64,000 nt of DNA from Bradyrhizobium sp. CB3481 (GCF_029714305.1 NZ_CP121647.1:6840501-6904500), one strand, 5' to 3'; shown: positions 5,652 through 36,160, numbered from the stretch's first letter. Notes: generated by a model not told the origin, from the letters alone. Made by a program: numbers and translations.

Positions 5652-6122
5652 CTAACCAAAAATCATCATGCTCCCAGCCTGATAATGCTTCAGGGCGAGG
5701 CGCAAGTCGTCAGGCAGCGCAATCGACTTGTGATCCACCAGCGAAGTCGTCACGGTCACGAAGGTGGCGCGTACGCACTCGATACCGTCCTTGAACGCGT
5801 GGACCGTCAGCTTCACCGAGGCGCGCCCGATTTCGCGTACAATGAGCGCAACGTCGAGAACATCTCCCATGCTGCTGGGCCTGGCGAAATCCGCCGAGAC
5901 GTGCGCATAGCCGAGGCCGGTCCGCCGCATCCTGACCAGCTCATGATAAGGAATTCCCAGCGCAGCGCCGTACCAATCCTCGATGACGCCATTGAACAAA
6001 TTGAGATATTCCGGCGTGTACACGATTCCGGCCGGGTCGCAGGAGCCGAAGCGCACCGGCAAGCGCGTGCGCCAGATCGAGTTCGGCAACTCGGATAGTG
6101 TCAGAGGCTCAAAACGGGCCAT
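5652..6122 (-). CDS. Acyl-CoA thioesterase, 4-hydroxybenzoyl-CoA thioesterase-like hotdog protein
   Basis: Hotdog-fold protein of 156 residues. The motif VRFGSCDPAGIVYTPEYLNLFN carries the conserved Asp of 4-hydroxybenzoyl-CoA thioesterases, which hydrolyse aryl-CoA esters. I use the ATG at 6122, 8 bases after AGGATGAG, rather than a TTG two codons earlier. It is 35 bases downstream of an acyl-CoA ligase on the same strand, with a MarR-type palindrome in the gap. A role in releasing an aromatic acid such as anthranilate from its CoA ester fits the neighbourhood but is inference. Confidence 0.85.
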   Translation of the reverse strand: MARFEPLTLSELPNSIWRTRLPVRFGSCDPAGIVYTPEYLNLFNGVIEDWYGAALGIPYHELVRMRRTGLGYAHVSADFARPSSMGDVLDVALIVREIGRASVKLTVHAFKDGIECVRATFVTVTTSLVDHKSIALPDDLRLALKHYQAGSMMIFG

Positions 6123-6140
6123 GCACAAGACTCATCCTGG

Positions 6141-6152
6141 TTTAGACCTAAA
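6141..6152. promoter_or_regulatory. MarR-type operator candidate upstream of the thioesterase gene
   Basis: TTTAGACCTAAA lies 18 bases before the thioesterase start and just beyond the stop of the upstream ligase. It matches the palindrome at 7862-7873 and resembles three more sites at 15600, 28134 and 28287. An internal operator here would let the thioesterase be controlled separately from the ligase. Confidence 0.5.
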
Positions 6153-6157
6153 GGGGG

Positions 6158-7801
6158 CTAGCGGCGCAGCTTGTAGCCTGCGGCATCGCGGTCCCAGATG
6201 TCAGAAGTCTTTCCGGCCTCGCGCAGCGCGACCTTTTTGATCTTGCCGTTCTCGGTCAGCGGCAGTTCCGTGACGATCCGGACGTAGCGCGGCACCGCGA
6301 AATAGGCCATCTTCCCCTCGCAATGCCTGATGATCTCGGTCGCATCGAGCCCGTGGCCGGCTTCAAGCTGAACGGCGGCGGCAACCTCATCCTCGCCGAG
6401 TTCTGACGGCAGCGGATAGATGGCGCAGGCCGCGATGGCCGGATGCTGCAGCAGCACCTGCTCCACCTCCCAGGACGAAACATTCTCGCCGCGCCGCCGG
6501 ATCGAATCCTTCATCCGGTCGACAAAGCGGTAGTGGCCATCAGCATCGCGCACGACGCGGTCGCCGGTATGAAACCACTGATCTCGCCAGGCTTCAGTGG
6601 TCTTGTCCGGCATCTGGAAATAGCCGGTCGAGAACGCGAGCGGCTCGCGCGCGCGTAGCAGCAGTTCGCCGGCTTCACCGTCAGGCAGAGCCACGTCGTC
6701 GGCACCGACGATACGGGCCTCGATGCCCTCGACCAGATGGCCCATCGTGCCCGGGCGATCGGACGGGATCGTACTGGCGAACACGAAATTGGTTTCGGTC
6801 GAGCCGTAGCCGTCGAGCAGCGGCACACCGAAGCGTTCGAGAAACGGACCGTGAAACTGACCGGGGACGCCGCCGCCGAGCGCAACGCGCAGGAAATGCG
6901 CGGTGTCATCGCCGGATTTCGGCTGCGCCAGCAGCATCACGGCCATCGCGCCGAGGAGATAGCCGACCGTCGCCTGATGCCGGCGCGCCGCCACCCAGAA
7001 GCCGGAGGCGGAAAATTTCGGCTCGAGCACGTAGGTACAGCCGTTCAGCAGCGCCTGATAGAACGCGTTCAGCGCATTGGTGTGGAATAGCGGCAGCGTC
7101 GTGAACAGCACATCGCCCTCGACGATTCCGAGCGCGCGCGCCGAATAGATGCCCCACCAGAACATCTGCGCCTGCGGACAGCAGACGCCCTTGGAAGGAC
7201 CCGTCGTGCCCGACGTATAAAGGATCGCGACCGTGTCGCCCGGCTGCACCGGCCCGGGATCGGCTTTCTCGCCGAGTGCCGGGAGCGGCGAGATCGATGC
7301 CTGCGCGATCGCAGGCGCGGCGCCCTCCCCGATCGTCCAGATGATGTCTGGCAACGCGACGTCCCGTTCCAGCGTTTCGATCGCCGGGATGAAGTTTTGT
7401 TCGATCACCAGCAGCTTCGGCATCGAATTGCGCAGGATGTGGCTGAGCTGAATGCCGCGCAGCGCCGTATTGATCGGCACGGTGATGGCGCCGATCCAGG
7501 CGCAACCGAGGTAGATTTCCAGAAATTCCGGCCGGTTCGAGCACATCAGGGCGACACGGTCGCCGGCGCGGATTCCCGCCTGCATCAAGCGGGCGGCGGA
7601 AGCGGCGGCAATCGAGGCCGTCTCGTCGTAGCTCCAGCGCGTGTCGCCGAAGATAAATAACGTGCGGTCACGGTACTGCGCGGCCTGGCGCGTCAGGATG
7701 ACCGGGAGCGTTCGCTCCGTCGGCGCGAAGCGCTCGATCGCCTCCGCCCAAATCGGCCGACGATGTCGCTGCCTGGACGTCCTGCCCTGATCTGCCCACA
7801 C
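6158..7801 (-). CDS. AMP-forming acyl-CoA synthetase (aryl/acyl-CoA ligase)
   Basis: ANL-superfamily ligase that activates a carboxylic acid as acyl-AMP and transfers it to CoA. Motifs: ATP loop TSGTTGPSKG, a GDRVVRD...DSIRRRGENVSS hinge, and the A10 motif LPLTENGKIKK with the catalytic lysine. The frame is open to 7882, but that extension would encode the operator at 7862-7873. I prefer the GTG at 7801, which follows GGAGG by 5 bases, giving 547 residues. Divergent from a second ligase. Substrate is not readable; an indole or aryl acetic acid is suggested by context. Confidence 0.85.
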   Translation of the reverse strand: MWADQGRTSRQRHRRPIWAEAIERFAPTERTLPVILTRQAAQYRDRTLFIFGDTRWSYDETASIAAASAARLMQAGIRAGDRVALMCSNRPEFLEIYLGCAWIGAITVPINTALRGIQLSHILRNSMPKLLVIEQNFIPAIETLERDVALPDIIWTIGEGAAPAIAQASISPLPALGEKADPGPVQPGDTVAILYTSGTTGPSKGVCCPQAQMFWWGIYSARALGIVEGDVLFTTLPLFHTNALNAFYQALLNGCTYVLEPKFSASGFWVAARRHQATVGYLLGAMAVMLLAQPKSGDDTAHFLRVALGGGVPGQFHGPFLERFGVPLLDGYGSTETNFVFASTIPSDRPGTMGHLVEGIEARIVGADDVALPDGEAGELLLRAREPLAFSTGYFQMPDKTTEAWRDQWFHTGDRVVRDADGHYRFVDRMKDSIRRRGENVSSWEVEQVLLQHPAIAACAIYPLPSELGEDEVAAAVQLEAGHGLDATEIIRHCEGKMAYFAVPRYVRIVTELPLTENGKIKKVALREAGKTSDIWDRDAAGYKLRR

Positions 7802-7861
7802 GCGCGCCTCCGCCGCTTCGCCGGGCCGATCTGCATCATTCGCTATTGGCCCACGAGATAG

Positions 7862-7873
7862 TTTAGGCTTAAA
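7862..7873. promoter_or_regulatory. MarR-type operator candidate between two divergent ligase genes
   Basis: TTTAGGCTTAAA sits in the gap between the leftward and rightward acyl-CoA ligases and is followed by GTATTT, as is the copy near 15.6 kb read on the minus strand. One site could control both ligases. It belongs to the set of five related sites in this region. Confidence 0.55.
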
Positions 7874-7969
7874 GTATTTCACGAAAGCTGCCGCCGCAGC
7901 AAGGCCTGCGTGTGAAGTTCCGGCCGTGATCGCCTGCAGCCGGAGGCATCAACAGGAGCGACGTCCGCA

Positions 7970-9592
7970 ATGAACCGCGACATTCCCTACCGTTCGCCAT
8001 CCGATGCGTTTGCGGCCACCGCCGAACGACGGCCCGACGCGCCGTTCCTGCTCGCCCCCGCCAGCGCCCAGCTTGCCTACGCGCCGGAGGGGTTCAACAT
8101 TGCTTACGGAGCGTTCAAGGCCGAAGTAGACCGGCTTCGCGCCGAATATGCGGCCGCCGGCTATGGGCGCGGCGCGCGGGTAGCCCTGCTGCTGGAAAAT
8201 CGCCCGGTCTTCTTCCTGCATTGGCTGGCGCTCAATGCGCTCGGGGTTTCGATCGTTCCGATCAACCCCGATGTCCGCCCCGACGAATTGTCCTTTCAGC
8301 TCGAGCTGTCGCAAGCCGACCTGCTGGTGGCGACGGCAGATCGCATGCTTGTGACCAGGGATGCCGTGCTCGGGCGCGTCCGCCTGATTGATACCGACAG
8401 CCGCATCCCGCCGTGCCAGACCGAAATTGTCGCGCAAAGCCCCGAGTTCAACGACGAATGCGCGCTGCTGTTCACATCAGGCAGTACCGGCAAGCCCAAG
8501 GGCTGCATGCTCTCGAACCGGTACTTTCTGCAGGTCGCCGACTGGTACCTCGCGCAAGGCGGCGTCGCCGAATTGCAGGCGGATCGCGAGATCAATCTGA
8601 CGCCGCTGCCGATGTTTCACATGAACGCGCTGGGCTGCAGCGCGGTCGGCATGATGGTGCTCGGCGGCGCCGTGGTTCCGCTGGACCGCTTCCACGCCAA
8701 TCGCTGGTGGCAGTGCGTGGCCGATAGCGGCGCCACCGTCGTGCATTGTCTTGGCGTCATCCCCGCCATCCTGCTGCAACTGCCGGTCACCGAGGTCGAG
8801 CGGCAGCATCGCGTGCGCTTCGCTTTTGCGCCCGGTGTCGACGTCCGCCACCGTGCCACCTTCGAGGAGCGCTACCGCATCCCGATCGTCGAAGCCTGGG
8901 CGATGACCGAGACCGGCGGCGCGGCGGCGACGACCACCGCGCGCGAGCCGGCCGGCTTCGGCGCCCGCTGCGTCGGCCGGCCATCTGATGGGATGGAGTA
9001 TCGCCTCGTCGACGATCAGGGCGGCGATGTCGCGGTGAGAAAACCCGGCGAATTGCTGGTCCGCGCCAAGGGCAGCGACAAACGCGCCGGATTCTTCAGC
9101 GGCTATTTGAAGGACGAGCAAGCCACCGAAGCGGCGTGGCAGGACGGCTGGTTCCACACCGGCGATCTCGTCTTCGCCGACGAAGACGGGCTTTTGTATT
9201 TCTTCGACCGCAAGAAGACCATCGTGCGGCGCAGCGGCGAGAACATCGGCGTGCTCGAAGTGGAAAGCGCGCTGTACATGGATACGCGGATCGGCGGCTG
9301 CGCCGTGACGCCCGTGCCGGACGAGATCCGCGGCGAAGAGGTGTTTGCGTTCATCGTGCCGAACAAGGAGGTCGAAGACGCCGCTGCGCTGGCGGCCTCG
9401 ATCGTCAAGACCTGCGCCGAACGCCTCGCCTATCACAAGGTGCCCGGCTATATCGCCATCGTCGCCGAATTGCCGCTGTCGTCAACGCGCAAGCTTGCCC
9501 GCGGCGAGATCAAGACGCTCGCGGCAGCTTCCGTCACCGACAACCGCGCGATCGACATGCGTGCGCTCAAGGCCAAGCTGCGTCACGCCTGA
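7970..9592 (+). CDS. AMP-forming acyl-CoA synthetase, second paralogue
   Basis: Ligase of 540 residues of the same superfamily as its divergent neighbour but of a different subgroup. ATP loop TSGSTGKPKG (about residue 169), AMTETGGA, the TGDLVF...DRKKTIVRRSGENIG hinge, and a C-terminal ELPLSSTRKLARGEIK segment holding the A10 lysine. It follows the operator at 7862 by about 95 bases and converges on a binding-protein gene. Two ligases in one locus suggest two acids, or entry and mid-pathway activation. Substrate unknown. Confidence 0.85.
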   Translation: MNRDIPYRSPSDAFAATAERRPDAPFLLAPASAQLAYAPEGFNIAYGAFKAEVDRLRAEYAAAGYGRGARVALLLENRPVFFLHWLALNALGVSIVPINPDVRPDELSFQLELSQADLLVATADRMLVTRDAVLGRVRLIDTDSRIPPCQTEIVAQSPEFNDECALLFTSGSTGKPKGCMLSNRYFLQVADWYLAQGGVAELQADREINLTPLPMFHMNALGCSAVGMMVLGGAVVPLDRFHANRWWQCVADSGATVVHCLGVIPAILLQLPVTEVERQHRVRFAFAPGVDVRHRATFEERYRIPIVEAWAMTETGGAAATTTAREPAGFGARCVGRPSDGMEYRLVDDQGGDVAVRKPGELLVRAKGSDKRAGFFSGYLKDEQATEAAWQDGWFHTGDLVFADEDGLLYFFDRKKTIVRRSGENIGVLEVESALYMDTRIGGCAVTPVPDEIRGEEVFAFIVPNKEVEDAAALAASIVKTCAERLAYHKVPGYIAIVAELPLSSTRKLARGEIKTLAAASVTDNRAIDMRALKAKLRHA

Positions 9593-9607
9593 GCTGCGCG
9601 CATCACT

Positions 9608-10762
9608 TCAAGGCAGCAGCTTGTATTTCCCGTTTTCGATCTGCACCAGGATACGCGCGCGGCTGTCCACGCCGTGGCGATCGGCCGGCGTATAGCTGTA
9701 GATGCCGTGCGTGCCCACGACTTCCTTGGTCGTGAACAGCGCCTCGCGCAGCGCGTTGCGGAACGCCGGCGTTCCCGGCGCCGCCCCTGATGCCTTGGCG
9801 CGCTTGGCGGCATCGGTGAATACCAGCCAGCCATCGAATGCGTAGGGTGAGAACGCATCGGCCGGCGGCTCGCCATTGGCCTTCTCATAGGCGGCGCGAA
9901 ACGCCAACGCGACCTTGCGGATCGGATTGTCATCGGGAAGCTGCTCGGCTGCGGTCACCGGGCCGGTCGGGCAGATGATGCCCTCGGCGGATTTGCCGGC
10001 AAGCCGCAGGAAATCCGCGCTGATCATGCCGTGATTGCCGTAGAGCGGGCCCTTGTAGCCGCGTTCGGACAGCGCGATCACCGGCAGCGCGCCCGGCGTC
10101 CCGGTCCCGCCGAGCATGATTGCATCGGGACGCGCGGAGATCGCGCGCAGCACCTGCGCGGTCACCGAGTTATCAGAACGCGCATAGCGTTCGTTTGCGA
10201 TCACCTTGATGCCGGCCGGATCAGCGCTCTGCAGCAGCGAGTTGTACATGAGGTCGCCGAAGGCGTCGGAGAAGCCGATGAACGCCACCGTCTTCACGTT
10301 GCGGCTCTTCATGTGATCGACGATGCCCTGAACGAGCAGCGGCGTAGGCTGCGGCGTCTGCACCACCCACGGCCCGCCCTCGCCGGCCGCGACCGGCGCG
10401 ATCGGCGAGACCGCCACCATCGGGACCTTCATCTCGATCGCTGCGGTGGCCATCGCCAGCGTCTGTGGCGCGCCCGATGTTCCGATCAGGAAGTCGACCT
10501 TCTCCTGCTCGACCAGCTTGCGGGCATTGCGCGTCGAGGCCGCCGGGTCCGAACCGTCATCGAGCTGAATGACGCGGACTTTCTCTCCGTCGATCTCGCC
10601 GACATAGGCCTGGCCCGTCGCCAATCCCTTGGCGTTCGGCACACCAATCGAGGACACCGGTCCGCTGAGGCCGGTGACGAAGCCGACGAGAATTTCAGCA
10701 CGCACCGGCGCCATCGCGGCGAGCAGGAGCGCGGCGCTAATCAAGATCTTCTTCTTTTTCAT
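9608..10762 (-). CDS. Branched-chain amino acid-type (LivK-like) ABC substrate-binding protein
   Basis: Periplasmic type I binding protein of 384 residues with signal peptide MKKKKILISAALLLAAMAPVRA. The mature N-terminus EILVGFVTGLSGPVSSIGVPNAKG and the motif IQLDDGSDPAASTRNARKL are close to those of the LivK at 16728, so the two are paralogues. ATG 10762 follows GAGGGG by 4 bases. Last gene of the leftward operon behind the cyclase-family hydrolase, 27 bases away. Family members linked to aromatic operons often bind aromatic acids. It has no membrane partner next to it and may share the permeases at 17.9-21.4 kb. Confidence 0.85.
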   Translation of the reverse strand: MKKKKILISAALLLAAMAPVRAEILVGFVTGLSGPVSSIGVPNAKGLATGQAYVGEIDGEKVRVIQLDDGSDPAASTRNARKLVEQEKVDFLIGTSGAPQTLAMATAAIEMKVPMVAVSPIAPVAAGEGGPWVVQTPQPTPLLVQGIVDHMKSRNVKTVAFIGFSDAFGDLMYNSLLQSADPAGIKVIANERYARSDNSVTAQVLRAISARPDAIMLGGTGTPGALPVIALSERGYKGPLYGNHGMISADFLRLAGKSAEGIICPTGPVTAAEQLPDDNPIRKVALAFRAAYEKANGEPPADAFSPYAFDGWLVFTDAAKRAKASGAAPGTPAFRNALREALFTTKEVVGTHGIYSYTPADRHGVDSRARILVQIENGKYKLLP

Positions 10763-10789
10763 GACGCCCCTCGATGTAAGCAAAAATGG

Positions 10790-11572
10790 CTAAGTCGCCG
10801 GCACCAGCGCAAGCACACGCAGCGGACTGCCGGAACCGTTCTGGATCTTGAGCGGCGCGGCCACGATCACCGCGCCGGTCGGCGGCAACTGATGAAGATT
10901 GCACAGACATTGCAGGCCGTAGCGTCCGCCACCGTGCAGGAAATGATGCGCCGGATAGGGCGGATCGAGATGACCGGCCTGGCCGGCATCCGTCCCGATC
11001 GTCTCGGTGCCGAAGCCGATCACGCCGCGCTCTTCGACGAGCCAGCGCATCACGGCGGCGTTCGGCCCTGGCGTGTGCGCGCCGTCTTCCTTCAAATTGG
11101 CGTAGTCGCGCCAGCCCCTCTTCGACCAGTCGGTGCGCAGCAGCACCCAGTGACGTTCCGGAATCCGCCCGTGGCGGCTTTCCCATTCTTCCACAACCGG
11201 GATCGTCAACAGAAAATCCGGGTCCTGCGCGGCCTGCGCCGAGCAATCGATCACGCAGGCCGGCGCGATCATGTCGCGCACCGGAAGCGTGTCGACCGAA
11301 TTGTTCGGCAGGTCCTTGCCGGTGAACCAGTGGATCGGCGCATCGAAATGCGTGCCGGTGTGCTCGCCGAAGGTCAGATTGTTCCAATACCAGGCAGGAC
11401 CACTCGCGTCATAACGCGAAATCTGCTGGATGCGTACCGGCGCGGCCTGGCCGAACTCCGGCGGCAGCACGATCACCGGAAAGTCCGGACTCAGCGTGAA
11501 CGTCAGGTCGACGACGCGCACCGCACCGGATGCAACTGCGCCGGCAAACTGCATGAGACTGTTGCTGTCCAT
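10790..11572 (-). CDS. Cyclase-family metal hydrolase, probable isatin hydrolase
   Basis: Protein of 260 residues in the KynB/cyclase family of Mn or Zn hydrolases. The metal motif HTGTHFDAPIHW (His71, His75, Asp77, His81) is followed by GKDLPNNSVDTLP, a stretch I associate with isatin hydrolases rather than arylformamidases. Isatin hydrolase opens isatin to isatinate, a known intermediate of auxin breakdown in Bradyrhizobium. ATG 11572 has a GGGAGAAG ribosome site. It is in an operon with the DUF35-SDR and thiolase-like genes. Family membership is firm; the isatin assignment rests on motif likeness and context. Kynurenine formamidase is the main alternative. Confidence 0.7.
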   Translation of the reverse strand: MDSNSLMQFAGAVASGAVRVVDLTFTLSPDFPVIVLPPEFGQAAPVRIQQISRYDASGPAWYWNNLTFGEHTGTHFDAPIHWFTGKDLPNNSVDTLPVRDMIAPACVIDCSAQAAQDPDFLLTIPVVEEWESRHGRIPERHWVLLRTDWSKRGWRDYANLKEDGAHTPGPNAAVMRWLVEERGVIGFGTETIGTDAGQAGHLDPPYPAHHFLHGGGRYGLQCLCNLHQLPPTGAVIVAAPLKIQNGSGSPLRVLALVPAT

Positions 11573-11599
11573 TGCGCTTCTCCCGCTTCCAACAAGCCG

Positions 11600-12841
11600 C
11601 TACGCCCCAAGCTCGCGCTCGACCGCCTTGGGATTGGCCGCAAGGCGCTGGCGAATGTCTTCGGCGACATCGCCCACGAACACATCTTCAAGTCCGCGCC
11701 TCAGCGCCGACACGATTGACGACGCCACGACGCGCGGCGCGACCTTCGGCGGCGGCACGGTCTGGAACCACTCGATATCGAGCGGACCGGTGAATACGTT
11801 CACCACCTTGACGCCGCCGGGCCGCAGCTCCGCGCGTAGCGAGTGCGACAATGAAAGACAGGCGGCCTGCGAGGCCGAATACGCACCGAAGGCCGGCCAG
11901 TTCGCCAACGCATAGACCGACAGGATATTGACCCAGGCCGCGGCGCTGTTGACGCCATCGGAGCCCCGCATTCGCATCGCCGGGCCGAACGCCTGCGCCA
12001 GATGCACGAAGCCGAGATAGCTTTGGTCGATCTCGTCGCGCACGACGCTGGTGCCTTGACGATCGAGCAGCCCGCCGGCGCGGACATGTTCGGTCGTGTT
12101 CACGAGAATGTCGACCTTGCCGCCGATATCGGCCGCCAGATCGGCGACGGATTTCTCGTCGCCGATGTCGAGCGGCACGATCTCGACGCCCTCGATCGCC
12201 CGCAGCGCATCCTCGCCGCGGAACGGCTTCCACGGTTCGGCAACGCCGACGAAGATGATCGACGCGCCGGCGGCCTTTAGCGCAGCCACCGTTTCCTGGC
12301 CGACGATGCTCCGCCCATTCGTCACCAGAACGCGCCGGAATTTTGGATCGGCCGTCATTTCGCGCCACTGCTTGTCGTCCGTCATGTTGGAAGTCTCCCG
12401 TTCGGGATGGGCGAAGGCCACGGCCTGCCCGCTTTTGTCCAATTGAAACGACATCACGACCGGCTGCCCCTCTTCGCAGTCGGCATGCAGGTGCGTCACC
12501 AGCTTCGGTCCGCATTCCATCGCGACCAGCCCGATACGCCATGGCGCGCGCTCGCGGAAGTGCACATCCGCTGGAATATGCAGCGTGGTTTCACTGAGCA
12601 GCGTGCCGCGCCGCGGCGCATCCGTGAAGACGAGATCGGCGGAAAGGCACGCAGGACAGGCATCGCGCGCCGGATAGCAGAACACCGCGCAGGCGCCGCA
12701 GCGCTGCAGCATGAAACGGCCTTCAGCGGCAGCCCGGGTAAAGCCGTGTGACGCGCGGCTGCGCGCCCGCGGCGGCGAGGTCGGCAGCCGCGTCCGCAAA
12801 AGCGGATTCTTCCGGCGCGGCTTGACGATCGGCTCGATCAT
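11600..12841 (-). CDS. DUF35 zinc-ribbon/OB-fold protein fused to a degenerate short-chain dehydrogenase
   Basis: Two-domain protein of 413 residues. Residues about 30-150 form a DUF35 unit: a rubredoxin-like ribbon (CGAC...CPAC) followed by an OB fold, the usual partner of SCP2-type thiolases and Ltp2-type aldolases. Residues about 165-413 are an SDR, but its glycine motif reads TNGRSIVGQ and the catalytic YxxxK reads YSASQ, so the lysine is missing and dehydrogenase activity is doubtful. It overlaps the thiolase-like gene by ATGA, supporting a complex. The SDR part may be structural, as in pseudoenzyme subunits of the BbsCD type. Confidence 0.85.
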   Translation of the reverse strand: MIEPIVKPRRKNPLLRTRLPTSPPRARSRASHGFTRAAAEGRFMLQRCGACAVFCYPARDACPACLSADLVFTDAPRRGTLLSETTLHIPADVHFRERAPWRIGLVAMECGPKLVTHLHADCEEGQPVVMSFQLDKSGQAVAFAHPERETSNMTDDKQWREMTADPKFRRVLVTNGRSIVGQETVAALKAAGASIIFVGVAEPWKPFRGEDALRAIEGVEIVPLDIGDEKSVADLAADIGGKVDILVNTTEHVRAGGLLDRQGTSVVRDEIDQSYLGFVHLAQAFGPAMRMRGSDGVNSAAAWVNILSVYALANWPAFGAYSASQAACLSLSHSLRAELRPGGVKVVNVFTGPLDIEWFQTVPPPKVAPRVVASSIVSALRRGLEDVFVGDVAEDIRQRLAANPKAVERELGA

Positions 12842-28347: not shown

Positions 28348-30510
28348 ATGGCAGAACGCTCTTTCGCGCGCGAGGTGGAAGACCTGAAGCTCGGCGCCGG
28401 CGAGGAATTTCGCGGTGAAGGCATCCTCGCCATCACCAAGGCATTGCTCGAATGCGGCGTCAGCTACGTCGCCGGCTACCAGGGCGCGCCGATCTCCCAT
28501 CTGATGGATGTGCTGTCGGACGCCCAGGATATTCTCTCCGATCTCGGCGTACACTTCGAATCCAGCGCGAGCGAGGCGACCGCGGCGGCGACGCTAGCCG
28601 CTTCCGTGATGTATCCGGTCCGCGGCGCCGTCACTTTCAAGGCGCCGGTCGGCATCAATGTTGCGTCCGACGCGCTGGCAAACCTCACATCGGGCGGCGT
28701 CACCGGCGGCGCGCTGATCATCATCGGCGAGGATTATGGCGAAGGCTCTTCCATCATGCAGGAGCGTTCGCATGCCTTTGCGATGAAGTCGCAGCTCTGG
28801 CTGGTCGATCCGCGACCCAATGTCGCCTCGATCGTGAATGCCGTGCGCGATTCCTTCGAGCTGTCAGAGGCCTCCAACACGCCCGTCATGCTGGAGGTGC
28901 GGATTCGCGCTTGCCATGTCCATGGCCGCTTTTCCACGCGCGACAATGTCCGCCCCACCTTTCCGCTGGCCCGCGCGCTCGAACAGCCGTCGCGCGATAC
29001 CAACCGGATCGTGTTGCCGCCGGCCTCGTTCCTGCACGAGAAGGAAAAGGTCGAGCATCGGTGGCCCGCGGCGGTCGAGTTCATCCACGCCCGCGGCATG
29101 AACGAGACGTTCGACGGCGATATCGACGATATCGGTATCATCATGCAGGGCGGTATGTACAACGGCGTCATCACCGCGCTGCGCGAGGCGGGCCTTGCAG
29201 ATATCTGGGGCGAGACACGGGTTCCGCTCTATGTGATGAACGTGACCTACCCGATCGTCGACCGCGAGGTGATCGACTTCTGCCGCGGCAAACAGGCCGT
29301 GCTGATGGTCGAGGAGGGACAGCCCGAATTCATCGAGCAGGCGCTGCACAAGATCCTGCGTAACGCCGACATTCCGGCCAAGCTGCACGGCAAGGATCTG
29401 TTCCCGATGGCCGGCGAATACACCGCGCAGGTCATGGGCGAAGCGATCGGTGCCTTCATCCGCCGCTGGCGTCCCGACGCGCTATCTGATTCTGCCCGCG
29501 CACCGAACATCGACCGCGTCGAGGTCGACGACAAGATCCGCGCATTGGCCGACGTGGTGCCGCCGCGGCCGCCGGGTTTCTGCACCGGCTGTCCGGAGCG
29601 GCCGATCTTTTCCGCCATGAAGCTGGTGGAGAAGGAGCTCGGCCCGCACCACATCGCCGCCGATATCGGCTGCCACTTGTTCTCGATCCTGCCGCCGTTC
29701 AATATCGGCGCGACCACGATGGGCTACGGGCTCGGTCCGGCATCGGCTTCGGCGTTCAACGTGCCTGCGGGAAAACGCCCGATCTCGATCATGGGCGACG
29801 GTGGCTTCTGGCACAACGGGTTGACCAGCGGTGTCGGCAACGCCGTATTCAATCAGCACGATGGCGTGATCGTCGTGGTCGACAATTATTATTCCGCCGC
29901 GACCGGTGGCCAGGACATCCCCTCCTCGCGCGCCGACAATCGTTCGCGCTCGACCAAGCATCCTATCGTTCAGGCCGTGAAGGGCATCGGCGCCAAATGG
30001 GTGCGTCAGATCGACCGCACCTATGACGTCACGCGCATGCGCGACACGCTGCGCGAGGCGCTGACGACCGAGGAGAAGGGCCCGAAGATCATCGTCGCCT
30101 CCTCCGAATGCATGCTGAACAAGCAGCGGCGCGTTAAGCCGCTGGTCGCAGCGGCCACCAAGCGCGGCGAGCGCATCGTGCGCGAGCGTTTTGGCGTCGA
30201 TGAAGACGTCTGTTCCGGCGACCACGCCTGCATCCGCCTGTCCGGCTGCCCGTCGCTGTCGGTGAAGCCGACCAGCGATCCGCTGAAGGACAATCCGGTC
30301 GCCGCTGTCGACAACAGCTGCGTCGGCTGCGGCCATTGCGGCGAGGTCGCCGATGCCGCCGTGCTCTGCCCATCCTTCTATCGTGCCGACATCGTTTCCA
30401 ATCCGACGGCGTTCGAAGCCCGGCTCGACCGCGTCTGGCGGCAGGTGATCAGCGCGCTGCAGCGCTGGCGCGCGGGCCGGCGCGTCATGTTCGAACAGGG
30501 TGCGGCATGA
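28348..30510 (+). CDS. Indolepyruvate ferredoxin oxidoreductase, alpha-like subunit
   Basis: Large subunit of 720 residues of a CoA-dependent 2-oxoacid:ferredoxin oxidoreductase. Order: pyrimidine-binding domain (GYQGAPISHLMD), central domain, thiamine diphosphate domain (CTGCPERP, then MGDGGFWHNGL and VVVDNYYSAATGGQ), and a C-terminal iron-sulfur domain with SGC and CVGCGHCGEVADAAVLCP. The IOR family decarboxylates aryl-2-oxoacids to aryl-CoA esters. Indolepyruvate is the textbook substrate; here isatinate (2-aminophenylglyoxylate) is an attractive alternative, giving anthraniloyl-CoA. The next gene overlaps by ATGA. Confidence 0.9.
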   Translation: MAERSFAREVEDLKLGAGEEFRGEGILAITKALLECGVSYVAGYQGAPISHLMDVLSDAQDILSDLGVHFESSASEATAAATLAASVMYPVRGAVTFKAPVGINVASDALANLTSGGVTGGALIIIGEDYGEGSSIMQERSHAFAMKSQLWLVDPRPNVASIVNAVRDSFELSEASNTPVMLEVRIRACHVHGRFSTRDNVRPTFPLARALEQPSRDTNRIVLPPASFLHEKEKVEHRWPAAVEFIHARGMNETFDGDIDDIGIIMQGGMYNGVITALREAGLADIWGETRVPLYVMNVTYPIVDREVIDFCRGKQAVLMVEEGQPEFIEQALHKILRNADIPAKLHGKDLFPMAGEYTAQVMGEAIGAFIRRWRPDALSDSARAPNIDRVEVDDKIRALADVVPPRPPGFCTGCPERPIFSAMKLVEKELGPHHIAADIGCHLFSILPPFNIGATTMGYGLGPASASAFNVPAGKRPISIMGDGGFWHNGLTSGVGNAVFNQHDGVIVVVDNYYSAATGGQDIPSSRADNRSRSTKHPIVQAVKGIGAKWVRQIDRTYDVTRMRDTLREALTTEEKGPKIIVASSECMLNKQRRVKPLVAAATKRGERIVRERFGVDEDVCSGDHACIRLSGCPSLSVKPTSDPLKDNPVAAVDNSCVGCGHCGEVADAAVLCPSFYRADIVSNPTAFEARLDRVWRQVISALQRWRAGRRVMFEQGAA

Positions 30511-32051
30511 ACGTCTCGATCGCGTCCTCCTCTGTCGGCCTCAGCCAGGCACGCCCGATCAGCATCGCGGTGCTCGCGATGGGCGGCCAGGGCGGCGGCG
30601 TGCTAGTCGACTGGATCGTGGCACTGGCCGAACAGCGCGGCTGGTTCGCACAATCCACCTCGGTCCCCGGCGTCGCCCAGCGCACCGGCGCCACGATCTA
30701 TTACATCGAGATGATCGCGCCAGATGCCAGCAAGCCCGGCCGACACCCCGTGCTGTCGCTGATGCCGGCGCCGGGCAAGGTCGATATCGTGATCGGCGCC
30801 GAATTGATGGAAGCGGGCCGCGCCATCCTGCGCGGCCTGGTCTCGCCGGACCGCACGCTGCTGATCGGCTCCTCGCACCGCTCGCTGGCGGTGATCGAAA
30901 AGACTGCGCCCGGAGACGGCACGGCGGATGCGGCGCAGGTCTTCGATGCGGCGAATGTCGCCGCCAATCGTTTCATCGCCTTCGACATGGCCGAGATTGC
31001 CGATGCCACCGGCAGCGTGGTTTCGGCCGTGCTGTTCGGCGCGCTCGCAGGCTCCGGCACCCTGCCCTTCACGACCGAGGATTTTGAAACGACGATCCGG
31101 GCCGCTGGTGTCGGCGTCGACGCCAGTCTGCGTGCTTTTGCGGCCGGCCGTGAGCGGACGATCGCCGAGCTCAAGCAGGATCCCAAGATCAAGCCGACGG
31201 CGAAGCCGCCGCTCGCAAAACGTTATCCGCGCCTCGAGCCGATCGGTCATGCTGGCTATGACGCGCTGGTCGCGCGGGCGCGGCTGTTGCCGGAAGAACT
31301 GCACGGCATCATTGCCGCCGGCCTGCAGCGCGTCGTCGATTTCCAGGACGTCGCCTATGGTGGCGAATATCTCGACCGGCTGGAGACGATGCCGCGCCAG
31401 GCCACCGGCCTGCTGCAGGCCTTTGCCAAATATCTCGCGGTGGCGATGGCCTATGACGATGTGATCCGCGTGGCGGATCTCAAGACGCGCGCGGGACGGC
31501 TCGACCGGGTGCGCCGCGAGGTGCGCGCGGGCAACGGCCAGATCCTCGCGATCACGGAATTCTTCCATCCGCGGATCGAGGAAATGGCGGGGCTATTGCC
31601 GCCGTGGCTTGGCGAGAGGGTCGAGCGCAGCGCGCAGCTCGGCAAGCTCATCGATCGCGGACGGAAACTGCGCACCACCGCGCCGCCGGCATTCCTGCTG
31701 CTTTACGGCGTCGCCGGCCTACGCCGATTCCGCCGCGGCACGCTGCGGCATGCCCGTGAGATGCGTCATCTCGACGAATGGGCGCAGCGTATCAAGAAAT
31801 TCGCCCTGACCGATCCTGCACTGGCGACCGCGGTGTGCGAGGCGCGCCGTCTCGTCGGCGGCTATTCCGATACGCATTCGCGCGGCGAATCGAAATTCGA
31901 AAAGGTGACGCGCGCGTCCGATCGCCTGGCCGGCCGGCCCGATGCCGCCGAATGGGTGCAGCGGCTGACCAAGGTGGCGCTGAAGGACGCCGACGGCGCC
32001 GAGCTCGACGGCGCGTTGCGCACGGTCGAGAGCCTGTTCGAGGACGCCTGA
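30507..32051 (+). CDS. Indolepyruvate ferredoxin oxidoreductase, beta-like subunit with C-terminal extension
   Basis: Gamma/beta subunit of 514 residues. The N-terminal 200 residues are the 2-oxoacid oxidoreductase gamma domain (VLAMGGQGGGVLVDWIV, STSVPGVAQRTGATIYYIE). The remaining 300 residues match the long extension seen in proteobacterial IorB proteins and absent from archaeal ones. ATG 30507 overlaps the alpha stop. Acts with the preceding subunit in the cytoplasm; electrons go to a ferredoxin. Confidence 0.88.
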   Translation: MNVSIASSSVGLSQARPISIAVLAMGGQGGGVLVDWIVALAEQRGWFAQSTSVPGVAQRTGATIYYIEMIAPDASKPGRHPVLSLMPAPGKVDIVIGAELMEAGRAILRGLVSPDRTLLIGSSHRSLAVIEKTAPGDGTADAAQVFDAANVAANRFIAFDMAEIADATGSVVSAVLFGALAGSGTLPFTTEDFETTIRAAGVGVDASLRAFAAGRERTIAELKQDPKIKPTAKPPLAKRYPRLEPIGHAGYDALVARARLLPEELHGIIAAGLQRVVDFQDVAYGGEYLDRLETMPRQATGLLQAFAKYLAVAMAYDDVIRVADLKTRAGRLDRVRREVRAGNGQILAITEFFHPRIEEMAGLLPPWLGERVERSAQLGKLIDRGRKLRTTAPPAFLLLYGVAGLRRFRRGTLRHAREMRHLDEWAQRIKKFALTDPALATAVCEARRLVGGYSDTHSRGESKFEKVTRASDRLAGRPDAAEWVQRLTKVALKDADGAELDGALRTVESLFEDA

Positions 32052-32053
32052 GG

Positions 32054-33019
32054 ATGGATCAATTCGAAGTCGTGGTGTCGAAGATTAAAGCGCTGACGCC
32101 GCGCATTCGCGAATTCGTGCTGGCGCGCCCCAACGGCGCGCCGATGCCGGGCTGGGCGGCGGGCGCTCATATCGATGTCCACCTGCCCGATGTTGGCCGC
32201 CGCTCCTATTCGCTGATCGAGACGGTTTCGCCGCGCGCGGCCGCTGAGCATCCCGCCGCCTATCGCATCGCTGTGCTCCAGGAAAGCAAAAGCCAGGGCG
32301 GTTCGACCTACATGCACGGCCTCAAGGCCGCCGACCGCCTGACGATCTCGCCGCCGGCGAACAATTTTCCGCTCGGTGCCGGCAGCGGCGAAGTCGCGCT
32401 CGTCGCGGGCGGCATCGGCGTGACGCCGCTGCTGGCGATGGCCTGCGAACTGAACGCGGCGAAACGCCCGTTCTCATTCTATTACGCCGGCCGCAGCCGC
32501 GGCGAACTTGCCTTTGTCAGCGAGATCGAACGCCTGACCAACGCAAACGCAGCCATCCACGCCGACGACGAAGCCGGGCGTTTCTTCGATCTTGAAGGTC
32601 TGATGAGCCGGCTCGCGCCCGAGGTGCCGCTCTATCTCTGCGGGCCGCTGCCGATGATCGAGGCCGCCATCGCGCTGGCGAAGCAAATGAACTGGCCGCC
32701 GGGCCGGCTGCACTTTGAGATATTCACCGCGCCCGAGGAGAAGTCCGGGGACGCCGCCTTCGAGGTCGAACTCAAGAGCAATGGGCGCGTTTACGAAATC
32801 CCCGCCGGCAGGACCATTCTCGACGTGCTGATCGGAGCCGGCGAAGACCCGATGCACGACTGCAAGCGCGGCGATTGCGGCATCTGCCAGACCACGGTGG
32901 TCGAGGGCATCCCCGATCATCGCGACTACATCTTGAGCGACAGCGAGAAGGCTTCGAACAAGGTGATGCAGATCTGCATCTCGCGCGCCAAAACCAAAAG
33001 ACTCGTGCTCGACCTGTGA
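32054..33019 (+). CDS. Oxygenase reductase, phthalate dioxygenase reductase type
   Basis: Single-chain reductase of 321 residues that passes electrons from NAD(P)H to the Rieske oxygenase. Domain order is flavin (RSYSLIE), NAD (AGGIGVTPLLAMA, CGPLPMIE), then a C-terminal plant-type 2Fe-2S ferredoxin with CKRGDCGIC and a fourth Cys in QICIS. ATG 32054 is two bases after the previous stop. This arrangement is that of class IA oxygenase reductases, so no separate ferredoxin is needed. Confidence 0.92.
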   Translation: MDQFEVVVSKIKALTPRIREFVLARPNGAPMPGWAAGAHIDVHLPDVGRRSYSLIETVSPRAAAEHPAAYRIAVLQESKSQGGSTYMHGLKAADRLTISPPANNFPLGAGSGEVALVAGGIGVTPLLAMACELNAAKRPFSFYYAGRSRGELAFVSEIERLTNANAAIHADDEAGRFFDLEGLMSRLAPEVPLYLCGPLPMIEAAIALAKQMNWPPGRLHFEIFTAPEEKSGDAAFEVELKSNGRVYEIPAGRTILDVLIGAGEDPMHDCKRGDCGICQTTVVEGIPDHRDYILSDSEKASNKVMQICISRAKTKRLVLDL

Positions 33020-33030: not shown

Positions 33031-34344
33031 ATGACCCGATATGCCGGCAACGCCGCGGCCATTCGCGCCCTGGTCCGCGAACAGGAGGTTCACCGCGACG
33101 TCTATGTCAGCGAGGAAGTGTTCCAGCTCGAGATGGAGCACATGTTCCCGAACAGCTGGGTCTATGTCGGCCACGACAGCCAGGTCCCCAATGCCGGCGA
33201 CTATTTCGGCACCACGATCGGCACGCAGCCGGTGCTGCTCGTCCGCCACACCGACGGCATGGTGAAGGTGCTGCACAATCGCTGTCCTCACAAGGGCACC
33301 CGCATTACCTCAGAGACCTGCGGCAACACCGGAAAGTTCTTCCGCTGCCCCTACCATGCCTGGAGCTTCAAGACCGACGGCTCGCTGCTCGCGATTCCCT
33401 TGAAGAAGGGTTACGAGAACACCGGCTTCGAGCAGAGCCACGCTGCAACCGGCATGGCCCCGGTGCGCCATGTCAAAAACTATCGCGGCTTCGTGTTCGC
33501 CAAGATCAACGACAGCGGCCTCGGCTTCGAGGAATTCTTCGGCGAGAGCCTGTCGAGCTTCGACAACATGATCGACCGCTCCCCGGTCGGCCAGCTCAAG
33601 GTCGCCGGCGGCGTGCTGCGCTATATGCACAACTGCAATTGGAAGATGCTGGTCGAAAACCAGACCGACACCTGCCATCCCATGGTCGCGCACGAATCCT
33701 CGGCCGGCACCGTCATCGAGGTCTGGAAGAAGGCGCCGCCCGGCACCAAGAAGCCGATGGCAGTCGAGATCATCGCGCCCTTCATGAGCCCGTACGAGTT
33801 CTTCGAGAACATGGGCATCCGGATCTGGGACAATGGCCACGGCCACACCGGCGTGCACCACTCGATCCATTCCGACTATTCGGCAATCCCCGGCTATTTC
33901 GAGAAGATGACGGCGGCCTATGGTGAGGAGCGCGCCAAGGCGATCCTCGGCGAGAACCGGCACAATACCGTTTATTTCCCCAACATCATGATCAAGGGCC
34001 CGATCCAGCTACTCAGGCATTTCAAGCCGATCGCGGCGAACAAGACGCTGGTGGAATCCTGGACGTTCCAGCTCGTCGATGCGCCCGACATGCTGCTGGA
34101 GCGCACGCTGATGTACAACCGGCTGATCAACGCGCCGACCTCCATCGTCGGCCACGACGATCTCGAAATGTACGAACGCGCGCAGGAAGGCCTGCATTCG
34201 AACGGCAATCAATGGGTGAACCTGCAGCGTCTCTATAGCCCTGACGAAGCCGGGCAGACCAATGTGGCGGTCAACGGCACCAGCGAGTGGCCGATGCGCC
34301 ATCAGTTCCGGGCATGGACCAAGTTCATGACGATGGGGATGTGA
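33031..34344 (+). CDS. Rieske aromatic ring-hydroxylating oxygenase, alpha subunit
   Basis: Catalytic subunit of 437 residues. The Rieske centre is CPHKGTRI and CPYHAWSF (C-x-H and C-x2-H) at about residues 80-105. The mononuclear iron site is NQTDTCHPMVAH, with the bridging Asp and two His. ATG 33031 is preceded by GGAGG; an ATG four codons earlier overlaps the reductase stop. It follows its reductase and precedes its beta subunit. Candidates are attack on an indole ring (2,3-positions of indole-3-acetate) or hydroxylation of anthranilate or salicylate; context favours the first. Confidence 0.92.
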   Translation: MTRYAGNAAAIRALVREQEVHRDVYVSEEVFQLEMEHMFPNSWVYVGHDSQVPNAGDYFGTTIGTQPVLLVRHTDGMVKVLHNRCPHKGTRITSETCGNTGKFFRCPYHAWSFKTDGSLLAIPLKKGYENTGFEQSHAATGMAPVRHVKNYRGFVFAKINDSGLGFEEFFGESLSSFDNMIDRSPVGQLKVAGGVLRYMHNCNWKMLVENQTDTCHPMVAHESSAGTVIEVWKKAPPGTKKPMAVEIIAPFMSPYEFFENMGIRIWDNGHGHTGVHHSIHSDYSAIPGYFEKMTAAYGEERAKAILGENRHNTVYFPNIMIKGPIQLLRHFKPIAANKTLVESWTFQLVDAPDMLLERTLMYNRLINAPTSIVGHDDLEMYERAQEGLHSNGNQWVNLQRLYSPDEAGQTNVAVNGTSEWPMRHQFRAWTKFMTMGM

Positions 34345-34345
34345 C

Positions 34346-34858
34346 ATGACCATGCTCGCCGAAGCCCCCCTCAAGAATGCTATCCCGACCGACCAGGAGT
34401 TGATCGATTTCGTCGTCCGCGAAGCACGCCTGATCGATCAGCAGCGCTTCGACGAATGGCTCGATCTCTACGCCGACGACGCCTTCTACTGGATGCCGCT
34501 GGAATGGAATCAGACCGATCCACGGCTGACCTGCTCCTTGATGTACGAGGACAAGCTCCTGCTCTCGATCCGGGTCGAGCGGCTCAAGGGCGCGCGGACT
34601 TTTAGCCAGAAGCCGAAAAGCCGCTGCCATCACGTGCTGCAGACGCCGCAGGTGGATTCGCGCGACACCGCCGCCAACCGCTACGTCACGTGGACCCCGA
34701 TGCATTATGTCGAGACCCGCCTGGACGAGCAGGCGCTCTATGCGGCGTGGGCCACCCATCATCTCTGCGTCGAGGACGGCCGGCTGCGGATCAAGCTCAA
34801 GCGCGTCGACCTGATCAATTGCGATGCTGCCTTCGGCAACATCCAGCTCTTCATGTGA
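34346..34858 (+). CDS. Rieske oxygenase, beta (small) subunit
   Basis: Structural subunit of 170 residues of the SnoaL-like ring_hydroxyl_B family. Blocks EARLIDQQRFDEWLDLYADD and YWMPLEWNQTD near the N-terminus are characteristic, as is a conserved SRCHHVLQ region. It starts one base after the alpha stop. Forms an alpha3beta3 oxygenase with the preceding protein. Confidence 0.92.
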   Translation: MTMLAEAPLKNAIPTDQELIDFVVREARLIDQQRFDEWLDLYADDAFYWMPLEWNQTDPRLTCSLMYEDKLLLSIRVERLKGARTFSQKPKSRCHHVLQTPQVDSRDTAANRYVTWTPMHYVETRLDEQALYAAWATHHLCVEDGRLRIKLKRVDLINCDAAFGNIQLFM

Positions 34859-34870
34859 GGCAGGATAGCA

Positions 34871-35599
34871 ATGGCCCATCACACGGCGATCGTGAGCGGC
34901 GGCAATACCGGCATTGGCGCTGCGATCGCGCGCAGCCTGCTCGCCGAAGGCTATGACGTGATTTCGCTGTCGCGGCGAAAGCCGGACTGGAGCCACCCAA
35001 AACTGTCCTCGCGCGAGGTCGACCTGCTCGATGCCGCCGCAACCCGCCAGGCGGCGGCTGAGATCGCGGCGAAGGTTGCAATCACCCACGTCGTTCACAA
35101 TGCCGGCGCGATCAGGCCGAAGCTGTTGGAAGAGGTCGCTGACGAGGATGTCGGCGCCTTGGCGCAACTGCATTTCGGCGCCGCGATTGCGCTGGCGCAG
35201 GCGGCACTGCCGGGCATGAAACAGGCGCGCTTCGGCCGCATCGTGCTATTGTCCTCCCGCGCCGCGCTGGGAGCTGCCACCCGGACCGTCTATTCCGCCA
35301 CCAAGGCCGGCATCATCGGCATGGCCCGCACCTGGGCGTTGGAGCTTGCCCCCTTTAACATCACCGTCAACGTCGTCGCGCCCGGACCGATCGGAGATAC
35401 CGAGATGTTCGAGAGCGTGATGTCGCCGGAATCCGAGCGTGCGAAGGCGCTAGCGCGGTCGATCCCGCTTGGCCGGCTCGGCAAGTCCTCCGACGTGGCC
35501 CGCGCGGTCGCATTCTTCAGTTCGCCGGATGCCGACTTCATCACCGGACAGACGCTCTATGTCTGTGGCGGCGCCAGCATCGGATCAATTTCCATCTAG
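34871..35599 (+). CDS. Short-chain dehydrogenase, dihydrodiol dehydrogenase candidate
   Basis: SDR of 242 residues with intact catalytic features: SGGNTGIGAAIA for NAD(P), HNAGA, LLSSRAALG, and YSATK with Tyr and Lys. It lies 12 bases after the oxygenase beta gene. In Rieske systems this position usually codes for a cis-dihydrodiol dehydrogenase. For an indole-ring diol it would oxidise the 2-hydroxyl to an oxindole. It contrasts with the pseudo-SDR domain at 11600. Confidence 0.88.
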   Translation: MAHHTAIVSGGNTGIGAAIARSLLAEGYDVISLSRRKPDWSHPKLSSREVDLLDAAATRQAAAEIAAKVAITHVVHNAGAIRPKLLEEVADEDVGALAQLHFGAAIALAQAALPGMKQARFGRIVLLSSRAALGAATRTVYSATKAGIIGMARTWALELAPFNITVNVVAPGPIGDTEMFESVMSPESERAKALARSIPLGRLGKSSDVARAVAFFSSPDADFITGQTLYVCGGASIGSISI

Positions 35600-35623
35600 C
35601 CCGTTTCTTTCCAGCTATTCGAG

Positions 35624-36160
35624 ATGCCCGCCATGGATGCCACCGTCAAACGCAAGACCAGATCCGCAAAGGGCGCGCGCGTGCAGCCGCCGCCCCCCGC
35701 CGAGCCGGCGCATGAATCCGACGGCGCGCATCTCGAACTGCGGATCTGGCTGCGGCTGCTGTCCTGCGCCACCAGAATCGAGAAGGCTCTGAACGCCCGG
35801 CTGCGCAAGGAATTCAACACCACCCTCGCCCGCTTCGACCTTCTGGCGCAGCTCGCGCGCCGGCCCGCCGGGGCGACCATGTCCGAAGTCTCCGAACTGC
35901 TGATGGTTTCGAACGGCGCCATCACCGCGCTGGTGCAGAAGCTGGAAGCCGACGGCATGATCCATCGCGAGGTCGATTCGGAGGATCGCCGCACCTTCCG
36001 CCTGCGCCTGTCGTCGGAAGGCGCCAGGGAATTCGGCCGCATGGCGCGGCGTCACGAGGAATGGGTGATTGCCTTGATCGGCGAACTGTCACCCGCCGCG
36101 CAGTCGGACCTGTTGCAGCATCTGACCCTGCTCAAGCGTCGCCTCGACAAGCACAGCTGA
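35624..36160 (+). CDS. MarR-family transcriptional regulator
   Basis: Regulator of 178 residues with a winged-helix domain at about 60-145 (FDLLAQLARRPAGATMSEVSELLMVSNGAITALVQKLEADG and the wing DSEDRRTFRLRLSSEG). MarR proteins in aromatic operons are repressors released by the substrate or its CoA ester. It ends the rightward operon and is the only regulator gene in the 5.6-36 kb region, so it is the best candidate to bind the five palindromes. ATG 35624 or the ATG three codons later may be the true start. Confidence 0.9.
   Translation: MPAMDATVKRKTRSAKGARVQPPPPAEPAHESDGAHLELRIWLRLLSCATRIEKALNARLRKEFNTTLARFDLLAQLARRPAGATMSEVSELLMVSNGAITALVQKLEADGMIHREVDSEDRRTFRLRLSSEGAREFGRMARRHEEWVIALIGELSPAAQSDLLQHLTLLKRRLDKHS

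Follow-up and report, generated by a model that had tools for sequence, protein, structure and literature searches.

We analysed a 64,000-nucleotide stretch of DNA from Bradyrhizobium sp. CB3481 (hereafter the window, positions 6,840,501-6,904,500 of an 8.04-Mb single-contig genome), and we propose that its genes between positions 5652 and 36160 form an iad-type locus for the aerobic degradation of the auxin indole-3-acetate (IAA), with a route through the coenzyme A (CoA) ester of dioxindole-3-acetate (DOAA), isatin, isatinate, and anthraniloyl-CoA. We hold this reading to be probable. Gene content, conserved synteny, family identities, and the state of catalytic residues are direct observations; the chemistry built on them is our proposal. 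In this model, a Rieske oxygenase and its reductase would dihydroxylate IAA, a stand-alone short-chain dehydrogenase/reductase (SDR) would oxidise the diol to DOAA, the second of two acyl-CoA ligases (ligase 2, 7970-9592) would make DOAA-CoA, and a thiolase-fold enzyme with a partner that fuses DUF35 to a degenerate SDR would split DOAA-CoA by a retro-aldol reaction into isatin and acetyl-CoA. Isatin hydrolase would open isatin to isatinate, a 2-oxo acid, which a pair of proteins resembling indolepyruvate:ferredoxin oxidoreductase (IOR) would convert to anthraniloyl-CoA and CO2. A thioesterase could then free anthranilate, or the CoA ester could enter an aerobic anthraniloyl-CoA pathway served by a hydroxylase encoded elsewhere in the genome, followed by RidA, an acyl-CoA dehydrogenase, a cupin dioxygenase, and an FAH hydrolase. 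A first-pass annotation had listed most of these enzymes, and family searches of the window proteins returned every class that it named, in place and with strong matches; its text lacked ligase 2, a flavin reductase, the fused SDR domain, an Ohr peroxidase, an Asp/Glu-racemase-family protein, RidA, and a LIV-type transporter.

Loci of this type are known. Conway 2022 (PMC9613470) defines iad-like loci by IOR alpha and beta markers (iadA/iadB, exclusive marker COGs) together with adjacent Rieske genes, and describes such loci in B. japonicum USDA110 and in Variovorax paradoxus CL14; in Variovorax, iadDE are necessary and sufficient for IAA loss, and the cultures contain dioxindole, isatin, isatinate, and anthranilate. 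Because iad-like loci and the isatin-anthranilate route are described there, the window locus is a further iad-like locus and not a new system. Compared by description only with those of CL14 and USDA110 (PMC9613470), it has in common with them the adjacent Rieske alpha and beta genes, the IOR alpha and beta genes, the reductase, a MarR gene, and the expected isatin-anthranilate route, and its genus is that of the USDA110 example; it differs in a MarR unlike the pair of sister Bradyrhizobium loci and in holding the acyl-CoA dehydrogenase and RidA while the hydroxylase lies outside. The iac loci (Pseudomonas putida 1290; Caballeronia glathei, PMC7225977) converge with it on DOAA, and the Rieske subunits are weakly homologous to IacCD according to PMC9613470; however, the iac product is catechol, whereas isatin and anthranilate are expected here. 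No IacA-like protein was found in the genome of the window strain at E<=1e-60 with the Chelatococcus IacA-like protein as proxy query, IacB and IacI not being searched.

Degraders of the iad type shield roots from an excess of microbially produced auxin (PMC9613470, PMC10329457). On a term search, the text of PMC9613470, figures aside, contains neither "thiolase" nor "cyclase", and that text assigns no enzyme between DOAA and anthranilate and no step to the IOR pair; later literature may differ. In iac bacteria, the gap from DOAA to catechol was unfilled as of 2020 (PMC7225977). As a locus, the one described here is ordinary; its value lies in the testable enzyme assignments that it supplies, whose novelty in print we do not claim. 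Together with its relatives, it offers concrete candidates in ligase 2, a retro-aldolase partnered by a dead-SDR/DUF35 protein, an isatin hydrolase, and an isatinate:ferredoxin oxidoreductase, and the core is shown to occur with both Rieske- and IacA-type front ends.

The oxygenase front end

The front-end genes all lie on the plus strand. The Rieske alpha subunit (33031-34344) matches PDB entries 9o71 at E 2.8e-188 and 7yls/8h2t at E 2.7e-186, the next relative reaching only 4.4e-44, and the beta subunit (34346-34858) matches the beta chain of 7yls/8h2t/9o71 at E 2.4e-51. We take these three entries to be the IAA dioxygenase IadDE, 8h2t presumably bearing the title "IadD/E dioxygenase bound with IAA". 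The two genes are adjacent, as iad-like loci require, and would, by their match to these entries, be of the IadD and IadE types. In a 4-sequence alignment, the alpha subunit keeps D213, H216, H221, and D376 as well as C85, H87, C106, and H109, with roles that we assume from naphthalene-dioxygenase spacing; a model built from 4 sequences reached a mean predicted local distance difference test score of 32. The ferredoxin/NAD oxidoreductase upstream (32054-33019; PF00175, PF00111), with a putative IadC-like role, is the same neighbour of the Rieske genes in Ruegeria and Roseibium. The stand-alone SDR downstream (34871-35599) keeps N77, S129, Y141, and K145 in 19/19 sequences (17 distinct), from which it appears catalytically intact, and we propose that it acts as the cis-diol dehydrogenase yielding DOAA. 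The earlier suggestion of a Rieske oxygenase, reductase, and SDR making DOAA is borne out as far as such matches and residues reach, and the auxin locus that it implied can be specified as iad type from the adjacent Rieske genes and the IOR pair. (Residue counts here and below exclude sequences with less than 40% identity, less than 85% coverage, or internal stops; they include the window sequence and some loci fetched twice, hence the distinct numbers: 52 of 58 for the thiolase, 54 of 59 for the fusion, 17 of 19 for the SDR.)

Relatives of the locus are not uniform at this end. Across 22 GTDB genomes, a Rieske alpha at least 69% identical was present in 10, and none was found at E<=1e-30 in 8 that hold the thiolase and IOR; the rest were 3 actinobacteria from cyclase-only loci and 1 B. 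barranii with a fragmentary Rieske. We had considered B. barranii as Rieske-less and dropped it, since its Rieske alpha match is a fragment, and it is left out of the 8; its iad locus (L129) shows fragmentary Rieske alpha and C-N hydrolase matches at 4897-13183, both intact in sister strains. An IacA-like flavin monooxygenase (E<=1e-60) is present in 4 of the 8 (Chelatococcus, two Bosea, Martelella), "IacA-like" denoting an acyl-CoA-dehydrogenase fold (PF08028) and, in Chelatococcus and Martelella, neighbouring genes for an SDR, a small protein, and a flavin reductase, and not likeness to an IacA sequence. In the other 4 (two Mesorhizobium, Neorhizobium, Ochrobactrum), we found no Rieske at E<=1e-30 and no IacA relative at E<=1e-60, other oxygenases being possible. 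Rieske and IacA-like front ends are not exclusive, because Bradyrhizobium sp. Arg816 has an IacA-like protein (52%) alongside its Rieske; nor is a swap of front ends wholly new, since hybrid clusters are already mentioned in PMC9613470.

Three groups of neighbouring genes deserve mention here. On Pukyongiella and Agrobacterium pusense plasmids, cores without a Rieske (E<=1e-80) lie near genes for aspartate dehydrogenase, TrpC, succinate-semialdehyde dehydrogenase, and Asp/Glu racemases, with aspartate ammonia-lyase nearby too in Pukyongiella, a neighbourhood that hints at auxin-aspartate conjugates as substrates. In Mesorhizobium and Ochrobactrum, a copper amine oxidase and aldehyde dehydrogenases adjoin the core, as if tryptamine fed into the route. 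A Pantoea agglomerans plasmid (locus L150, 9069-14843) carries a Rieske alpha 52% identical, together with a reductase, a beta subunit, an FAD oxidoreductase, and an amidase; no DUF35-SDR fusion match was found on that plasmid, and the genes possibly belong to another indole-acid route.

The proposed ligase, retro-aldolase pair, and isatin hydrolase

The locus holds two acyl-CoA ligases on opposite strands, ligase 1 (6158-7882, minus; PRK06155, 843.7 bits, cut-off 722) and ligase 2 (7970-9592, plus; AMP-binding PF00501). A ligase 2 ortholog (46-47%) lies between the Rieske beta and thiolase genes in Ruegeria, Roseibium, and Pusillimonas, and ligase 1 had no match in the stretches fetched from these three. 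Because 7970-9592, and not 6158-7882, has the ligase of the compact operons as its best match, the DOAA-CoA-forming enzyme is most likely ligase 2. The ligase step proposed earlier thus keeps a candidate, although the most likely one was absent from that annotation's text.

Directly downstream in our model come the thiolase-fold protein (12838-14016, minus), related to lipid-transfer proteins, and the DUF35/degenerate SDR fusion (11600-12841, minus; PF12172, PF01796, PF00106), whose genes overlap by 4 bp. The best PDB matches of the former are the lipid-transfer-protein chains 9myr and 6ok1; compared with these and with 4u4e, the places of the thiolase Cys, the GHP His, and the HD-motif His are taken by Gly, Gln, and Tyr in 58/58 sequences (52 distinct). 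Standard thiolytic cleavage is rejected, as 0/58 sequences keep the thiolase residues, and their absence from all 58 argues for C-C lyase chemistry; the protein resembles Ltp2-type retro-aldolases, and we propose that it converts DOAA-CoA to isatin and acetyl-CoA. In the fusion, the DUF35 zinc cysteines C48, C51, C62, and C65 are kept in at least 97% of 59 sequences. The SDR half is probably structural, because its catalytic Lys is missing in 59/59 (54 distinct) and its Tyr is kept in only 40/59; a dehydrogenase step for it is likewise rejected on the loss of the Lys. The pair recalls the steroid side-chain retro-aldolase Ltp2-ChsH2 (6ok1), which we take to perform the retro-aldol cleavage of a beta-hydroxyacyl-CoA: both have a thiolase fold without thiolase residues and a DUF35 partner. 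There, however, the DUF35 partner is a separate or MaoC-fused protein, whereas here it is fused to a degenerate SDR, and the substrate would be an oxindole. The retro-aldol role first assigned to a thiolase-fold/DUF35 pair fits these residues; its simple DUF35 partner has to be replaced by the fusion with a dead SDR.

The third member of the core is the cyclase-family protein (10790-11572, minus; PF04199). It matches isatin hydrolase A (5nnb/5nna) at E about 5e-116, with 162/254 residues identical to 5nnb (64%), and it keeps the HxGTHxD metal motif, H71, H75, and D77 being conserved. These data support its earlier designation as an isatin hydrolase producing isatinate. It is of the same family as the solved isatin hydrolases (5nna, 5nnb, 5nmp, 4j0n), with a context of auxin and not of stand-alone isatin use.

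Thiolase and DUF35-SDR genes directly precede the cyclase gene, in that order, in 48/52 loci found with the window cyclase as query, a seed that favours close relatives; the 4 without the core are actinobacterial loci with a cyclase match only, one of them on a 4.5-kb contig. In Ruegeria and Roseibium, the genes are packed into compact operons in the order reductase-Rieske alpha-Rieske beta-ligase 2-thiolase-DUF35SDR-cyclase-SDR. In a class-wide sample of 385 genomes, a DUF35-SDR match (E<=1e-40) occurred in 10, a Rieske alpha (E<=1e-80) in 20, and both in 9 (hypergeometric P = 3.5e-12, or 6e-11 without the window's own genome, relatedness not corrected). Two of the 9 (G187, G281) have a Rieske with just 39% identity, and the tenth fusion match, in a 64% complete genome (G193), covers the DUF35 half only in a 195-amino-acid frame, so that a fusion is not shown there. 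All 6 genomes of this sample with a Rieske alpha at least 60% identical are among the 10 with a fusion match. Among plasmid records, many of them near-identical copies from Sulfitobacter and Roseibium, a Rieske alpha at least 60% identical was accompanied by the fusion on the same plasmid in 26/26, a more distant Rieske (still E<=1e-80) in 0/11, and 8/34 fusion records had no such Rieske on that plasmid.

The chief competing explanation accepts an iad front end and takes DOAA to isatin without a CoA ester (e.g., via dioxindole), leaving the thiolase/DUF35 pair and the ligases to another branch. The dioxindole present in Variovorax cultures fits such a route, and E. coli with iadDE alone removes IAA, which leaves the later steps unconstrained by that assay (PMC9613470). 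We nevertheless judge it unlikely, for the thiolase, fusion, and isatin hydrolase genes are contiguous in the 48 loci, ligase 2 directly precedes the thiolase in the compact operons, and the loss of thiolase residues argues for C-C lyase chemistry.

A broader idea follows the distribution just given. The core of thiolase, DUF35 fusion, and isatin hydrolase comes with a Rieske in some genomes, with an IacA-like front end in others, and with neither found in still others. Retro-aldolase, DUF35/dead-SDR protein, ligase 2, and isatin hydrolase could form a portable DOAA-degrading module that takes different front ends, and the genomes without one may use plant-oxidised auxin; we offer this as a tentative idea, with the balance of our own judgement tilted against it. 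Were it true, the removal of auxin in soil would extend to the forms in which plants themselves inactivate it (oxindole- and dioxindole-acetate, conjugates), and the module would act via a retro-aldol step that is without assignment in what PMC9613470 and PMC7225977 state in their text.

The isatin hydrolase family also appears in another setting: on an Azospirillum plasmid (locus L088, 14708-20771), the isatin hydrolase gene follows genes for an SDR, an indole/styrene monooxygenase, a flavin reductase, a transporter, and an FAD oxidoreductase, an apparent indole-to-isatinate operon. As parts of the route serve indole there, the true substrate of the window locus might be another indole or arylacetate (indole, indole-3-propionate, a halogenated auxin), with IAA incidental. 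This seems to us rather improbable, since the Rieske falls in the 7yls/8h2t/9o71 clade and the retro-aldol core needs a two-carbon side chain that can be activated with CoA, and indole has none.

The proposed route from isatinate to the lower pathway

The IOR-like alpha (IadA, 28348-30510, plus; PF02775) and beta (IadB, 30507-32051, plus; PF01558, with the DUF6537 domain PF20169) homologs detected with family profiles match the iadA/iadB marker genes, and we propose that they convert isatinate to anthraniloyl-CoA and CO2. Support for this product comes from gene neighbourhood, because IOR genes adjoin a salicylyl-CoA/2-aminobenzoyl-CoA hydroxylase in two genera and are found close to one on a plasmid from a third organism. 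The two genera are Ochrobactrum and Neorhizobium, where 280 and 338 bp separate the pair from a hydroxylase 61% identical to that of Caballeronia. The Caballeronia plasmid operon holds IOR alpha, IOR beta, a thioesterase, salicylyl-CoA 5-hydroxylase (PRK08255 above cut-off), a cupin, FAH, a C-N hydrolase, and an Asp/Glu racemase; the isatin hydrolase gene lies beside this operon, and the plasmid gave no Rieske match at E<=1e-30, the chromosome not being searched. The anthraniloyl-CoA product postulated by the first-pass annotation is strengthened by these neighbourhoods. As a separate observation, the IOR alpha match in Pusillimonas (two loci) breaks between query residues 380 and 398 within a single open frame of 770 amino acids, which suggests an insertion in the protein.

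Downstream of anthraniloyl-CoA, the thioesterase (5652-6128, minus; PF13279) is proposed to release anthranilate or a hydroxylated analogue from CoA; a homolog adjoins IOR beta in Shinella, Caballeronia, and Martelella. The gentisate-type cupin dioxygenase (25289-26461, minus; gentisate 1,2-dioxygenase 3bu7, E 5.6e-171) and the FAH hydrolase (24367-25278, minus; FAH family match) are proposed to cleave the ring of the hydroxylated product. RidA (26467-26862, minus) is deaminase-like. The acyl-CoA dehydrogenase (26900-28087, minus) has an ortholog (E<=1e-100) in 17/22 genomes or records, at most 2.6 kb from the hydroxylase in 15 of the 17, the exceptions being the window strain and B. hereditatis; because of this linkage, we assign it to the aerobic anthraniloyl-CoA lower pathway, which it fits. 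An aerobic 2-aminobenzoyl-CoA pathway is known from Azoarcus evansii (ACMR). As in that pathway, hydroxylase, acyl-CoA dehydrogenase, RidA, and CoA ligase co-occur in relatives of the window, whereas the window locus itself lacks the hydroxylase.

The 3-hydroxyacyl-CoA dehydrogenase (21543-22520, minus) and the opine-type dehydrogenase (22517-23794, minus; start probably near 23608) are harder to place. The opine-type gene, present in 10/22 genomes or records, adjoins the core in the window, B. hereditatis, and Martelella (3 of the 10), is 5.6 kb from a hydroxylase in B. yuanmingense and B. glycinis (2), and lies near neither in the remaining 5; in B. yuanmingense, ligase, acyl-CoA dehydrogenase, SDR, and enoyl-CoA hydratase genes lie between or around it and the hydroxylase. 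Both dehydrogenases may belong to the anthraniloyl-CoA lower pathway, less certainly than the acyl-CoA dehydrogenase given a linkage of 2/10. Three dehydrogenases had been left unexplained at first: the acyl-CoA dehydrogenase can now be placed with the hydroxylase, and for the other two the link is weak. For nitrogen removal, we rejected a clean either/or between the C-N hydrolase (7/22 genomes or records) and the acyl-CoA dehydrogenase with RidA (acyl-CoA dehydrogenase in 17/22), as four records (G390, G391, G402, W01) hold both; no C-N hydrolase ortholog was found in the genome of the window strain at E<=1e-60, a further point of difference from the described iad-like loci.

Several points weigh against the proposed iad-type locus and its route. 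(i) Only 3/19 genomes or records have IOR genes no more than 3 kb from the hydroxylase, and in 16/19 they are more than 10 kb away or on another contig; this list left out the Shinella plasmid (IOR, no hydroxylase match) and G386, G387, and G403 (hydroxylase not searched). (ii) The hydroxylase of the window strain is outside the locus, about 0.5 Mb away, and 52% identical to the Caballeronia one; it belongs to a cluster near 6.36 Mb (PRK08255, 1146 bits, cut-off 1078) that also holds a benzoate-CoA-ligase-family ligase (373.9 bits, cut-off 375.25), RidA, and an enoyl-CoA hydratase. (iii) The iad loci of B. yuanmingense and B. barranii carry a MarR pair like the two of Shinella, probably the IadR/IadR2 pair of PMC9613470, and the window MarR (35624-36160, plus) is unlike this pair, which leaves induction of the window locus by IAA unproven. 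At 38-45% identity, this MarR resembles MarRs encoded next to ligase 1 or the hydroxylase; its best PDB match is 3boq at E 9.5e-20, the IAA-binding 3cdh reaching only E 1e-4. (iv) Direct retro-aldol cleavage to isatin does not require the dioxindole reported from Variovorax (PMC9613470). (v) We infer every substrate assignment in this strain, above all those of the ligase, retro-aldol, and IOR steps.

The first point bears on whether the span could be two or more unrelated neighbouring loci, an auxin half and an anthranilate/gentisate half. The hydroxylase is not beside IOR in most genomes; some 2 Mb separate the Rieske/IOR part from the thiolase/cyclase part in B. barranii, and in B. yuanmingense the two parts fall on separate contigs. 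Yet a single block holds the Rieske, IOR, thiolase, hydroxylase, and acyl-CoA dehydrogenase genes in both B. glycinis (about 31 kb) and Bradyrhizobium sp. Arg816 (about 40 kb), Rieske, IOR, and core are together in Rhizobiales 62-17 and Pusillimonas, and the product of one half is the substrate of the other; we therefore give unrelated loci little credence. That the pair is a true IOR, in a locus feeding on tryptophan or indolepyruvate via indoleacetyl-CoA, is suggested by the family name and the PF02775/PF01558 matches and is very improbable, as the alpha subunit scores 286.4 bits against the TIGR03336 IOR_alpha equivalog, under the cut-off of 650.9, and the pair is found with isatin hydrolase and anthraniloyl-/salicylyl-CoA hydroxylase where no Rieske was found.

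Other genes of the locus and its flanks

The iad-type locus also holds candidate uptake genes. A LIV-type ABC transporter of four plus-strand genes (16632-21434), a candidate for auxin uptake, comprises a binding protein (16632-17876), a permease (17915-18958), a permease-ATPase fusion (18955-20724), and an ATPase (20721-21434); close homologs stand beside the core in 40/48 core loci. A periplasmic binding protein (9608-10783, minus; PF13458), likewise a putative uptake component, lies 6 bp from the isatin hydrolase gene. On the minus strand are further an Ohr-type peroxidase (14044-14472; TIGR03561 above cut-off), an Asp/Glu-racemase-family protein (14482-15381; PF01177), which is a recurrent neighbour of thiolase and cyclase in relatives, an alpha/beta hydrolase (15773-16849; PF00561), and the flavin reductase (23709-24356; PF01613). 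In contrast to two-Cys racemases, the 14482-15381 protein has only a single Cys that is kept in at least 97% of 43 sequences. Most same-strand neighbours are spaced at -4 to +38 bp, apart from a gap of 391 bp ahead of the alpha/beta hydrolase and an 86-bp overlap contingent on the start of the opine-type dehydrogenase.

The host is very probably a Bradyrhizobium of the B. hereditatis/B. jicamae group, because its cyclase is 96% identical to those of both species. Upstream of the locus, 613-5405 encodes a HutF-like amidohydrolase, a GntR regulator, and an NMT1-type ABC transporter. An AAA protein (36185-37423) directly follows the auxin locus, and the RuBisCO large-subunit gene at 37660-39333 (PF00016, PF02788) suggests that a Calvin-cycle cluster adjoins it.

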